Of a stretch of DNA of 64,000 bases, positions 6,939-16,296 are shown piece by piece. A program made the position numbers and the translations under genes. Source of the DNA: a bacterium. Lineage in GTDB: Bacteria > Electryoneota > RPQS01 > DYHQ01. Within the stretch, counting starts at the first letter, position 1; every line of letters begins with the position of its first letter. The notes beneath the pieces were generated by a model. The model searched no databases. It saw nothing but the letters and a program-made list of their open reading frames with translations, and was not told where the DNA came from. The DNA lies in NCBI GenBank assembly GCA_030622545.1, contig JAUXGA010000001.1, forward strand, positions 434,001 through 498,000. Direction: 5' to 3'.

Positions 6939-8369
6939 TTAGAACGTCATCATCGTTTCGATTCGCACGCTGCGATGCGCTTCCCCGTTCCAATAAGTAA
7001 TCCGGTGATCATAGACGAGAGTGACGTTGGAAGCCAGACCAAGATAAACTTTCGTGCCGTAAATTGTTCCGTCCGTGTTGGTTTCGAAGAGCCGTTCGAC
7101 ATTGGGCTGCATAAAGTAGCCTGAAACCTTGCGCACCTTCGGCACAAAAGCAGGCGTGATTCCCGCTTCACCGTAGAAAGTCTTGGCGGCGGAATAGTTT
7201 TCTCCATGCATGTCGAGGTACCACGCGTTGACATAGGCAAGCGTCCCGATATACAGCATGATGTCGGCGTAGTGTCCGTCGGCGCGCGAAAGCCCCTTCA
7301 GCATGGCCTCTTTGGGGACATACGTCGAATCTCCCACCAGACGTACGCGCTCGATTTCATAGACGAAATTGAAATAATCACCCAGGAATTGGCTGTCATA
7401 GTGCCGGAATTCATACCCGACTTTCAGAGGGCCGATTCCGACCGTGACACCGGGAAATGCGAATCCCCATCCATAATCAAGAATCTGCGCCGCCTGAGTG
7501 TACAGCCAAATCGAGAGCGGTCGTTTGCGCCAGATAGGCAAACCTGCGTCTGCACCGATGATGGCAATACCGTCTTTCAAATCCTTATAATTTTGTGGCG
7601 GCGATGTGATATCCGGTAGATGTCCCCATTCAATTAGCTGCCGAATCTCAGCGTCAGACAACAGGTTATAGAGTTCATCGCGTCGCCGGAAATCGTTCAC
7701 GCCATCGAACCAATCCAGTCCATCCGGTACTCCATCGTTGTCAGCATCGCGCGCTCCCGCGTACTGGTTTCCGTCGTAACCGATAGTTCCTCCGAATGTC
7801 AATCCCGCGACCGGCGAACGGTAAGACAGCCTACATCCGACAAGCCCCGGTTCGTCGATTTCACGCAAATTATTCAGCATCGCCTGCCAGCCAATACGGT
7901 CGCGCTCTCCCTCTGTGTAGATGCCAAGTCGTTTCACAGCCGGATATTGAATCGCATTCGAGTAATGCCGCATGATGATGCCATAACCGAGTGTCACACC
8001 ATCGAGTGCGCCTACTCGCGCATAAAAGGGATCCCCCGGCAAGCCATAGCGGATATAGTAAATTTTTTCGACGATATCGAAGGGTTCGTCCCAATCCTCT
8101 TCGCGTAGTTGTCCGTCTTCGTCAAAGTAAAACGTTAAATCCAGACCGATTCCGAATTTCCCCAGTGGAATATCGGGGCGCAGACTGAACTGCTGATAGA
8201 CTTTGCCGTCAATAATCACTGCTCCAATAGCGCCGTTCCAGCGAATGCCGCCGGTCGGACTGCCGACTCCCGGCGGAGGAGGATCAAAAGCAGGGTCGTA
8301 GGTTTCCTGCGCAAATGCCGGAATAAATGTGAACAAACAGATGATGATGACAGCAACGAGAGGCCGCAT
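6939..8369 (-). CDS. Exported beta-rich protein, probably outer-membrane barrel
   Basis: I do not recognise a named family. I start at 8369 because GGAG lies five bases upstream and the product then begins with a signal peptide (MRPLVAVIIICLFTFIPAFA, cut before QE). A longer frame from 8402 adds 11 residues that spoil it. The 476-residue product is rich in alternating aromatic/hydrophobic strands and ends in phenylalanine (IETMMTF), as barrel proteins recognised by BamA do. Around residue 210 it has DADNDGVPDG, an Asp-rich calcium-binding motif of the thrombospondin type-3 kind. It heads a two-gene unit with a HEAT protein and has its own promoter. Confidence 0.75.
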   Translation of the reverse strand: MRPLVAVIIICLFTFIPAFAQETYDPAFDPPPPGVGSPTGGIRWNGAIGAVIIDGKVYQQFSLRPDIPLGKFGIGLDLTFYFDEDGQLREEDWDEPFDIVEKIYYIRYGLPGDPFYARVGALDGVTLGYGIIMRHYSNAIQYPAVKRLGIYTEGERDRIGWQAMLNNLREIDEPGLVGCRLSYRSPVAGLTFGGTIGYDGNQYAGARDADNDGVPDGLDWFDGVNDFRRRDELYNLLSDAEIRQLIEWGHLPDITSPPQNYKDLKDGIAIIGADAGLPIWRKRPLSIWLYTQAAQILDYGWGFAFPGVTVGIGPLKVGYEFRHYDSQFLGDYFNFVYEIERVRLVGDSTYVPKEAMLKGLSRADGHYADIMLYIGTLAYVNAWYLDMHGENYSAAKTFYGEAGITPAFVPKVRKVSGYFMQPNVERLFETNTDGTIYGTKVYLGLASNVTLVYDHRITYWNGEAHRSVRIETMMTF

Positions 8370-8447
8370 AATAACTCCGCAAATTCGATATTCTATCCAC
8401 ATACGAATTCAAAGTCTCAGATCATAGTCTTTTTGCGCATTTCCTTA

Positions 8448-13761: not shown

Positions 13762-14511
13762 TTGCTGGCAACGATTATCTTGGCAGCGGGGAAGGGCAAG
13801 CGGATGGATTCCGACTTGCCAAAAGTACTGCATCCACTGGCAGGGAAACCGCTCATTGAGCATGTCCTAAACGCCGCGGAATATTTACAGCCTGACAAGA
13901 CAATTATCGTCACAGGACATAAACGCGAGCAAGTTGAGGCGTGTCTAAGGGAAAGAGCATGTCACTTCGTCGTGCAAGAACCACCGAAAGGAACCGGGCA
14001 CGCTGTCTTGCAGGCGGAACCTGTTCTGCGGAGAATTAATGGTGATGTTGTTGTTCTTTCTGGAGATGTGCCGCTCCTTCGCGGCGAAACATTAGCGCGG
14101 TTGCTCGAGATTCACCGGCAGAACCAAAATGCGGCATCGGTTCTTTCGACAATACTGCAAAATCCGAAGGGTTACGGTAGAATCGTAAGGGATACGAGCG
14201 GCAATTTTCAGGCGATCATTGAAGAGAAAGAGGCATCGTCTGATATAAAGCAAATAAGAGAGATAAATTCTGGAATATATGCGTTCAATATTCAAGGTTT
14301 ATTTGAATATCTTCAACATATACGGCCAGACAATCGGAAAGGCGAATATTACCTGACCGATGTGATTGGTCTGATGGTGGAAGCAAAAAAGCGTGTAGAA
14401 GCCCATGCCATCGCGGATTTCCGGGAGGTTAGGGGTATTAACACGCAACAGGAGCTCAAAGACGCGGAAAATGAGTACAGCTCCCGGTCAGAAAGCCTAA
14501 AAAAGTGTTGA
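13762..14511 (+). CDS. GlmU-type N-acetylglucosamine-1-phosphate uridylyltransferase, single domain
   Basis: The 249-residue protein matches only the N-terminal pyrophosphorylase half of GlmU, which makes UDP-GlcNAc from UTP and GlcNAc-1-P. The signature LAAGKGKRMDSDLPKVLHP, the QAEPVL/LSGDVPLL region and YYLTDVIGLMVE are clear. It ends just after the linker (VRGINTQQELKDAEN), where full-length GlmU (about 450 residues) continues into a left-handed beta-helix acetyltransferase. The following bases do not encode that domain in any frame, so this is not a recent frameshift. TTG start with AGGTGAGG upstream. A related sugar-phosphate specificity is possible. Acetylation would need another enzyme. 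Confidence 0.85.
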   Translation: MLATIILAAGKGKRMDSDLPKVLHPLAGKPLIEHVLNAAEYLQPDKTIIVTGHKREQVEACLRERACHFVVQEPPKGTGHAVLQAEPVLRRINGDVVVLSGDVPLLRGETLARLLEIHRQNQNAASVLSTILQNPKGYGRIVRDTSGNFQAIIEEKEASSDIKQIREINSGIYAFNIQGLFEYLQHIRPDNRKGEYYLTDVIGLMVEAKKRVEAHAIADFREVRGINTQQELKDAENEYSSRSESLKKC

Positions 14512-14536
14512 CTTTTTTCGGAAAAATTTATATAAT
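14508..14536 (+). promoter_or_regulatory. Near-consensus promoter of the 14571 gene
   Basis: TTGACT (14508-14513), exactly 17 bases, then a perfect TATAAT (14531-14536). The stop codon of the preceding gene lies inside the -35 box, as at nrdR/nuoJ. The leader would be about 28 bases. It is the best-matching promoter I found in the window. Confidence 0.82.
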
Positions 14537-14570
14537 AAGTAATTAAGGTAGAATCTCCCGAGGCCTGTTT

Positions 14571-15071
14571 ATGCGTTACTTTCTTGTTTCACTTTTAATC
14601 CTTTCCGCAGCGGTTTCTGTCGCAGAAGCTCAGTTCCGCCAGAACAATGGCCCGGGGGATACGGGGAGCTATCTTCGGTCTTATCAACCACTTGGCATCC
14701 CTGTGAACACGGTTTCACTTTTGGATCCTTCACGGTTGCATATGTCCCATTCTGTCCAGATGGGTTATTATTCGGCGGGAGGAGTCAGTGCTTCCCGGGG
14801 GATGTATTTAAATTCACTGACGTACGATATATCCCGCCCTCTTTCGGTGACCACTCACCTTGGGATTCAGTTCCAACCTTCCGGTCCGGCGGAATGGAAT
14901 CCTGCGAACTATGGAAACCAGTTTGTGGGAGGAGCCGAGTTGAACTGGCGCCCTGCGCGGAATTTTTTCCTGCAAGTCAGCGCCTTCCGTGGGATGGTTC
15001 CCGATTACAATCGCTATGGGTACTACGGTTGGGGAACGCAAGGGATTTTTCCTTATGGGCTTCGGCCGTAA
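14571..15071 (+). CDS. Small exported protein of unknown function
   Basis: I do not recognise this 166-residue protein. It has a clear signal peptide (residues 1-20, ending VAEAQ). The mature part is rich in Tyr, Gly, Asn, Ser and Pro, with alternating hydrophobic residues suggesting beta strands (VTTHLGIQFQP, FVGGAELNWRP, FFLQVSAF). No Cys and no lipobox are visible. It has a near-consensus promoter and a strong terminator of its own, so it should be a separately and strongly expressed periplasmic or outer-membrane component. ATG start, preceded by CCCGAGGCC. Confidence 0.8.
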   Translation: MRYFLVSLLILSAAVSVAEAQFRQNNGPGDTGSYLRSYQPLGIPVNTVSLLDPSRLHMSHSVQMGYYSAGGVSASRGMYLNSLTYDISRPLSVTTHLGIQFQPSGPAEWNPANYGNQFVGGAELNWRPARNFFLQVSAFRGMVPDYNRYGYYGWGTQGIFPYGLRP

Positions 15072-15113
15072 GGGCGCACATGCCCTATGCTGCTCCCCCG
15101 TCGTGTTGTTCTG

Positions 15114-15142
15114 AGACCGAGACTCTCTGCTCGGTCTTTTTT
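15114..15142 (+). terminator. Strong rho-independent terminator
   Basis: AGACCGAG (15114-15121) pairs with CTCGGTCT (15130-15137) around an eight-base loop, directly followed by a run of T (15137-15142). It is 43 bases after the stop of the 14571 gene and 16 bases before the next start codon. Confidence 0.9.
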
Positions 15143-15157
15143 GTGAGGGCTTAAAGA

Positions 15158-15763
15158 TTGGCACGCCGTTTCTATCCTTCTTCCAAACCGACAAAGCGAA
15201 CTCCGTCTGATCCGGCGCATAAGCGACTCTACAGCTTATTGATTCTTTTAATCGCGCTGCAGCTCTTTACCATCGGGCTGTTAGTTATGCGAACCGGCGG
15301 CGTTCCGGAAACAACCTCAGAATCCATGACGGTTGATCAGACTCTTTCGCAGATGGAAACCTTTATCAAACCTGCACTGGAAGATACGGGGCAAAAAGTT
15401 GAGACGGATACGCTGCTGAGTGATGACAGCCGTGAAGCGACTCCTCCGGTATGGGACACACCGACGAGAGTTCAGCTTTTGAATGGCTGTGGAGTGCGAG
15501 GTCTTGGGCAAATGCTTTCATCCGCCCTACGAGAAAGCGGTTTTGATGTGCGTGAAATCGGCAACGCCGACCGTTTTGGCTATGAACAAACGCTCGTGCT
15601 TGATCGAGTCGGAGAACGTGGTCGAGCGTTGGCGTTAGCCGACAGTTTCGGTATTCATCCGGACAAGGTACGCACCGAGCGCGATGAAAAACTGGTCGAT
15701 ATCGATGTAACGCTTATCGTCGGTGGGGATTACAAAAACCTGAAGTTCAGTACGGAAAGGTAA
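15158..15763 (+). CDS. Membrane-anchored LytR C-terminal domain protein
   Basis: The 201-residue protein has a basic N terminus, one membrane helix (about residues 24-44), an acidic linker and a LytR_C domain (about residues 108-195; VQLLNGCGVRG, YEQTLVLDR, VDIDVTLIVGGDY). That domain is found on LytR-CpsA-Psr proteins and alone in proteins upstream of rsfS; its function is not established. The catalytic LytR-CpsA-Psr domain is absent. TTG start, with GAGGGC upstream. It lies just past a strong terminator, so it needs read-through or an unseen promoter. Confidence 0.8.
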   Translation: MARRFYPSSKPTKRTPSDPAHKRLYSLLILLIALQLFTIGLLVMRTGGVPETTSESMTVDQTLSQMETFIKPALEDTGQKVETDTLLSDDSREATPPVWDTPTRVQLLNGCGVRGLGQMLSSALRESGFDVREIGNADRFGYEQTLVLDRVGERGRALALADSFGIHPDKVRTERDEKLVDIDVTLIVGGDYKNLKFSTER

Positions 15764-15822: not shown

Positions 15823-16296
15823 CTGACACTAAGTCATGTAGAACGTTTCGCCGTCAGTCTGGGCGAGCGAGCTTTGGAAAAGAATGCTGAAGATGTTGTG
15901 CTGATGGATTTGCGCAAGCTCAACGCCATGACCGATTTCTTTGTCATTTGCACCGGAAGTGTTGAGCAGCACGTGAAAGCAATCGCTGACCATATCACAC
16001 GGGATATGGCCAAGGAGGGCATTAAAGTCTATCATCAGGAAGGCTACGGAAATTGGCGCTGGATATTGCTCGACTATTCTGATGTTGTCGTGCATGTTTT
16101 TCAACCGGCTTGGCGCGATTACTACCGTTTGGAAGATTTATGGGGGGACGCGCGGATGCGAGTCCTCGATGAAGCCTATTTGAAAAGAAAAGCCGCACGG
16201 GCAAAGAAGAAGAGCAAAGCTCCTAAAAAGAAGGCCGCTTCCCGAACAAAATCCAAAACGCAGCGCACCAAGAGTCGCGGCGCCCGGAAAGCATGA
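15823..16296 (+). CDS. rsfS: Ribosomal silencing factor RsfS
   Basis: RsfS binds ribosomal protein L14 and blocks subunit joining when nutrients are scarce. I place the start at CTG 15823, behind GAGGTAA (15813-15819). The extra 17 residues (TLSHVERFAVSLGERA) then supply the N-terminal helix that RsfS proteins normally have. A TTG at 15874 is the only standard alternative and would cut that helix off. The core (DFFVICTGSVEQHVKAIADH; WILLDYSDVVVHVFQP; YYRLEDLWGDA) is typical. The last 35 residues are a Lys/Arg-rich tail (KKKSKAPKKKA) not in usual RsfS. It overlaps argS by four bases. Confidence 0.88.
   Translation: MTLSHVERFAVSLGERALEKNAEDVVLMDLRKLNAMTDFFVICTGSVEQHVKAIADHITRDMAKEGIKVYHQEGYGNWRWILLDYSDVVVHVFQPAWRDYYRLEDLWGDARMRVLDEAYLKRKAARAKKKSKAPKKKAASRTKSKTQRTKSRGARKA

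Follow-up and report, generated by a model that had tools for sequence, protein, structure and literature searches.

A near-universal single-copy family of small exported proteins with a preferred LytR_C neighbour in several bacterial phyla

The 64 kb stretch of bacterial DNA analyzed in this study, hereafter the window, carries on its forward strand the gene of a 166-aa exported protein (14571-15071, stop included), which starts with ATG at 14571. Judged from profile searches and gene order, this is a near-universal single-copy gene with a fixed address rather than an odd gene among housekeeping genes, and the preliminary description, which located it inside a string of housekeeping genes, therefore understated the case. 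The point of interest is accordingly the family itself, unnamed, exported, near-universal, single-copy, and provided with a preferred neighbour, rather than the promoter ahead of the gene. As a tentative explanation, which may quite possibly hold, the product is proposed to be a small beta protein of the outer membrane, belonging to an undescribed single-copy family and acting as the partner of a LytR_C protein, with its gene at the head of an operon that has a leaky terminator.

Distribution and genomic address

Profile searches recovered the family in 38 of the 39 genomes of its own phylum (KSB1-type), including all 27 that have a completeness of 90% or more and contamination of no more than 5%; in a second phylum, 59 of the 60 genomes sampled carry it. 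With a wider profile, it was found in 38/39, 32/40, and 54/61 sampled genomes of three more phyla, percentages that are not strictly comparable, as the narrower profile A1 was used in two of the six homologue sets and A5 in the rest. Copy number is one nearly everywhere across the five phyla. Two genomes of the phylum with 32/40, both of one genus, carry two strong neighbouring copies (G494:C2:302937-304005 and G514:C19:112969-113922), and two genomes of the phylum with 54/61 show a second, very weak match. Among 386 relatives sampled across the domain, the family is present in 85, comprising 38 from its own phylum and 47 from outside it. The named relatives are metagenome-assembled genomes labelled candidate division KSB1, Calditrichaeota, or plain bacterium, with one labelled Candidatus Puniceispirillum, which is probably a mislabel. 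A phage origin was ruled out, as the search of viral contigs gave no relative. No description of the family was found in the literature searched, the coverage of which left out most subscription journals, so that one may be in print.

Within its own phylum, the gene occupies an order kept almost throughout, namely PanB-PanC-GlmU-like-exported-protein gene-LytR_C-RsfS-ArgS-PfkB-MtnA-TPR-UppS. The GlmU-like, LytR_C, and RsfS proteins of the region were assigned by domain scan, and MnmA, PanB, PanC, ArgS, PfkB, MtnA, UppS, and the NifS-like protein were named by eye. The conserved downstream neighbour (15158-15763, forward strand) is a 201-aa protein with a TTG start and an N-terminal hydrophobic segment, in which PF13399 was the only family found, at 49.6 bits against a cut-off of 22.2 and with no LCP domain, making it a solo LytR_C protein. 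The second conserved downstream gene (15874-16296, forward strand) was identified by domain scan as RsfS.

The preference for this neighbour extends beyond the phylum. Among 46 sampled loci, 41 outside the phylum and 5 inside it, the next gene downstream encodes a solo LytR_C protein in 34 and RsfS lies near in 31, with clustering placing a GlmU-like gene upstream in 20 and PanC being present in 17; within the phylum, LytR_C is found in 27 of 30 short loci. Neighbours vary in the 12 of the 46 loci that lack LytR_C next to the gene, and in 10 of these 12 the genome has one solo-sized LytR_C elsewhere. Taking as solo-sized any open frame of at most 285 aa with E <=1.4e-9 among the matches listed, such a protein occurs, in the 347 genomes outside the phylum, in at least 34 of the 47 with the family versus at least 21 of the 300 without it, weaker ones being missed on both sides. 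Fisher's test gives 3e-22 for this co-occurrence with genomes treated as independent of shared ancestry, for which both the synteny and the co-occurrence counts are uncorrected.

Several further observations concern the surroundings of the gene. The GlmU-like protein directly upstream (13762-14511) has only 249 aa and consists of the nucleotidyltransferase domain alone, without the acetyltransferase part. Positions 6939-8402 encode an exported protein of 487 aa for which Pfam gave no match up to E 10, and its gene is kept in divergent orientation to the NifS-like gene in several genomes of the order (loci L032, L033, L034, L036, L037, and L056). In two loci without LytR_C (L082 and L076, of genomes G362 and G226), the gene of the family follows one for a small zinc-ribbon-like protein and precedes one for an exported PorV-like protein, and in genomes G237 and G373, likewise without the LytR_C neighbour, it precedes a prepilin-peptidase-like gene, all of these being named by eye.

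The exported protein and its predicted strands

The initial identification of a 166-residue signal-peptide protein of unknown family was borne out, as the frame 14571-15071 was confirmed, signal-peptide columns recur in 70 aligned homologues, and the protein is recognized by no Pfam family up to E 10 and by no NCBIfam model. The signal peptide comprises residues 1-20 (14571-14630), with cleavage predicted between A20 and Q21 from the column statistics: K or R stands at position 2 in 51 of the 70 homologues, a small residue at -1 in 62, and Q at +1 in 48. The family thus displays the basic start, hydrophobic core, and AxA-type site that serve as signal peptidase I criteria. Lipoprotein status was ruled out, there being no lipobox cysteine and no Cys at +1 in any of the 70 homologues; the mature window protein is devoid of cysteine, and homologue L020 has a single lipobox string, attributable to chance. 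The possibility that the protein is a fragment of a longer gene in relatives, named in the preliminary description as a ground for refutation, was also checked and ruled out, since 69 of the 70 homologues have open frames of 128-246 aa and the sole exception, the 339-aa frame of L067, is longer because it extends upstream across the GlmU-like gene.

Even for 47 diverse relatives, profile matches are weak and scattered, falling mostly on outer-membrane barrels (BBP2_2, OMP_b-brl, TonB barrel, PorG, and EpsL, at E 0.0015 to 0.05), with weak family matches to OmpX/Ail at E about 0.6 to 1.5. Two of the 47 touch PF13505 (best E 0.05), and its curated cut-off was not reached. A match of residues 23-74 to kinesin light chain, obtained in the PDB profile search with A1 (E 0.0066), was judged to be chance because it disappeared with the wider profile A5.

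According to the 70-sequence alignment, the homologues have three features in common, namely the signal peptide, some five beta strands of the alternating membrane type, and an aromatic tail. A conserved LDPSR motif (residues 51-55, 14721-14735) stands in the alignment directly before strand 1 (residues 56-68, 14736-14774), which is followed by strand 2 (residues 76-88, 14796-14834) and by strand 3 (residues 91-101, 14841-14873), where alternation is strongest. Strand 4 (residues 118-127, 14922-14951), ending in the turn WRPxxN, is predicted from alignment columns and is not separate in the core structure model, whereas strands 1, 2, 3, and 5 (residues 132-141, 14964-14993) are predicted from both. 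A variable tail rich in aromatic residues, glycine, and proline, with a recurrent [YF]PYG-like end, occupies 14994-15068 in the alignment.

In the five strands, hydrophobic columns alternate with polar or small ones. Summed over the strands and compared with shuffled columns, the alternation of mean hydrophobicity reaches z 3.7 on the Kyte-Doolittle scale and z 4.6 with aromatics counted as hydrophobic, figures flattered by the placing of the strands by eye on the same alignment; inside individual strands it mostly falls short of significance (p 0.01 to 0.35). The turns SxPL and RPxxN, which are of the type found in outer-membrane barrels, and the weak barrel-profile matches both favour an outer-membrane beta protein. 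Against this reading stands H60, a polar residue conserved in 46/70 and situated on the side expected to contact lipid. Only 16 of the 70 homologues end in W, F, or Y, and the window protein ends in P, so that the usual C-terminal aromatic assembly signal of barrels appears from the alignment to be lacking as a rule. Structure prediction was poor for the full mature protein (pLDDT 52) and middling for the core (pLDDT 70.6, pTM 0.49), which was modelled as a four-strand meander as opposed to the five strands suggested by the columns. Foldseek against the PDB returned no match at E <= 0.001 (best E 0.84, OmpF), and the best VIA-align match (SilC, Z 6.0) was inside the chance range; both fold searches are taken as uninformative.

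Promoter, terminator, and read-through

The near-perfect promoter first noticed ahead of the gene is present as a sigma-70-type sequence, TTGACT-N17-TATAAT, at 14508-14536 on the forward strand. Its -35 box TTGACT (14508-14513) overlaps the stop codon of the upstream GlmU-like gene, the spacer has 17 bases, and the -10 box TATAAT (14531-14536) ends 34 bases before the ATG. No other site in the 64 kb window matches at 11/12, and first-order Markov sequences would yield 0.35 such sites. Across the 2.66 Mb genome, the pattern TTGACW-N16-18-TATAAT occurs at 11 sites versus 0 for the reversed control pattern, which suggests that these sites are probably real promoters, and the one at 14508-14536 very probably so; the other ten precede recognizable genes, one of them a tRNA-Ala gene. 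As six of the 11 sites have the better box TTGACA, this is the best match of the window, as first noticed, though not of the genome, where by sequence match it is one of several strong ones. Within the phylum, TTGAC-type boxes lie at the same upstream place in most relatives. A score of at least 10/12 is reached in 9 of 30 relatives; among shuffled sequences the share is 1%, and among some 200 regions ahead of neighbouring genes 5 reach it. Another 13 of the 30 score only 7 or 8 of 12, the shuffle mean being 7.8. Judged by match count alone, conservation of the promoter across relatives is modest.

Downstream of the gene, a GC-rich hairpin (15113-15138) and a T run (15137-15142) together form, at 15113-15142 on the forward strand, a terminator-like structure with the features of an intrinsic terminator. 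The hairpin with a T run given in the preliminary description is thus confirmed, with a stem of 9 pairs instead of eight. Such sites show no excess as a class in the surrounding 10 kb (14 versus 12.0 in shuffles), and folding of the stretch gives a modest z-score of -1.56. This hairpin, however, is conserved. Among homologous genes, a terminator-like hairpin lies within 150 bases after the stop in 33 of 70, with 5.6 expected; these are divided into 24 of 30 in the first set, which includes one homologue from another phylum without a hairpin, and 9 of 40 in the rest. Nearly all of them belong to the gene's own phylum, which suggests that outside it simple cotranscription of the gene with LytR_C is probable.

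The function of a terminator depends on pairing and not on the sequence ACCGAG/CTCGGT. This stem core is identical in 13 of 13 members of the order, and the pattern ACCGAG-N4-14-CTCGGT has one site in the genome, precisely the hairpin at 15113-15142. In 16 of the 70 homologues, one of them from another phylum (L100), the arms CCGAG/CTCGG are found no more than 200 bases from the stop; the remainder of the loci would predict 0.5. The terminator stem differs in another family of the phylum. An Rfam search of 14400-15300 gave nothing near the gathering score.

The LytR_C start at 15158 follows the hairpin end at 15138 by 19 bases, leaving no room for a promoter between them, and the forward strand inside the 166-aa gene has no promoter-like site of 9/12 or better. 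LytR_C and RsfS are therefore probably transcribed by read-through, in which case the hairpin would determine in what proportions the products are made. The characterization of promoter, gene, and terminator as a complete stand-alone unit is correct as to its parts and overstated as to its independence, because LytR_C begins so soon afterwards with no recognizable promoter of its own; an operon head with a leaky internal terminator is more likely.

Competing explanations and significance

According to the proposed explanation, the product would be made with a cleavable signal peptide, and its approximately five short strands, with their alternating hydrophobic columns and membrane-type turns, would insert in the outer membrane, where the protein would probably act as an oligomer or as the partner of another barrel, five strands being too few for a classical closed barrel. 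The operon would run from the promoter through the exported-protein gene and the leaky terminator to LytR_C and RsfS, the terminator allowing much exported protein and little LytR_C and RsfS. The likely partner would be the membrane-anchored solo LytR_C protein, and the pair would link outer membrane, wall, and inner membrane. It is also conceivable, albeit improbable, that a mini-barrel, necessarily multi-chain with at most five strands per chain, would constitute with the inner-membrane LytR_C a core envelope link, its dose set by the ACCGAG/CTCGGT partial terminator.

The protein could instead be an ordinary abundant small outer-membrane protein unrelated to LytR_C and RsfS, its address reflecting the inertia of an old gene block. 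The whole PanB-to-UppS block is kept in the phylum, so that neighbours would stay together without needing each other, the LytR_C neighbour is absent in 12 of the 46 loci, and a terminator stands between the two genes. Outside the phylum, however, the rest of the block is lost (GlmU-like in 20/46, PanC in 17/46) while LytR_C is kept in 34/46, and the co-occurrence persists with non-adjacent LytR_C in 10 of 12 genomes, leaving this alternative rather unlikely. Clearly less likely still is a soluble protein of the periplasm, perhaps an envelope chaperone or a binding protein, folded as a beta-sandwich or small barrel with the hydrophobic face as its core: the conserved polar H60 and N81 on that face would suit a binding pocket and the C-terminal beta signal is absent, but the strand region has only about 86 residues, with Tyr, Trp, and Phe at the strand ends and turns of outer-membrane-protein type, and the opposite face is made up of Ser and Gly that are conserved, not of charged residues that vary. 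Least probable is a structural subunit of the cell surface or the extracellular space, transported across the outer membrane with its aromatic, glycine-rich tail exposed. The strong promoter and the variable length of a tail rich in Y, G, and P would agree with such a role, which is opposed by the single copy and constant short length in five phyla, fitting a core component better, and by the failure to recognize a sorting domain.

Known systems offer partial parallels. OmpX/Ail/OMP_b-brl (PF13505) barrels have in common with the exported protein a signal peptide, short amphipathic strands, and tight periplasmic-type turns, although the profile similarity to OmpX/Ail is very weak and reaches no curated cut-off. 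Barrels of the OMP_b-brl/OmpX type have eight strands, in contrast to the four to five predicted here, and the exported protein further differs in having no C-terminal aromatic signal as a rule and in occurring once, at a fixed place in the genome, in several phyla. Multi-chain barrels, such as TolC-type factors, trimeric autotransporter anchors, and secretins, contribute four strands per chain, the number seen in the core model where the columns suggest five; the corresponding structural matches (SilC Z 6.0, AtaA anchor Z 4.7, and InvG Z 4.9) are all within chance, and the exported protein, modelled as a single chain only, differs from them in lacking long helices, a coiled coil, and a passenger.

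As for the neighbour, one account describes VirR and Cei, two solo LytR_C proteins of M. tuberculosis, as needed for wall integrity and as restraining vesicle release (PMC11832169). They belong to the same family as the protein at 15158-15763, a solo LytR_C with an N-terminal hydrophobic segment, and by analogy with their wall role an envelope role is plausible for it; the envelope differs, and the exported beta protein has no known counterpart in the VirR/Cei system. In Bacteroidota, the extra BAM subunits BamG, BamH, BamM, and BamP are presented as envelope additions unknown elsewhere (PMC12611786), resembling the exported protein as components particular to the same wider group of phyla. 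In that account they are lipoprotein, SusD-like, or periplasmic subunits, a description that sets them apart from it.

A gene present once in almost every genome of several phyla usually serves a function that the cell cannot spare. The proteins considered here are exported, unnamed in Pfam and NCBIfam, and drawn from phyla with little-studied envelopes. If its product is truly the outer-membrane partner of solo LytR_C, a new envelope module would be defined, and the role of solo LytR_C proteins outside mycobacteria would become testable in any cultured member.
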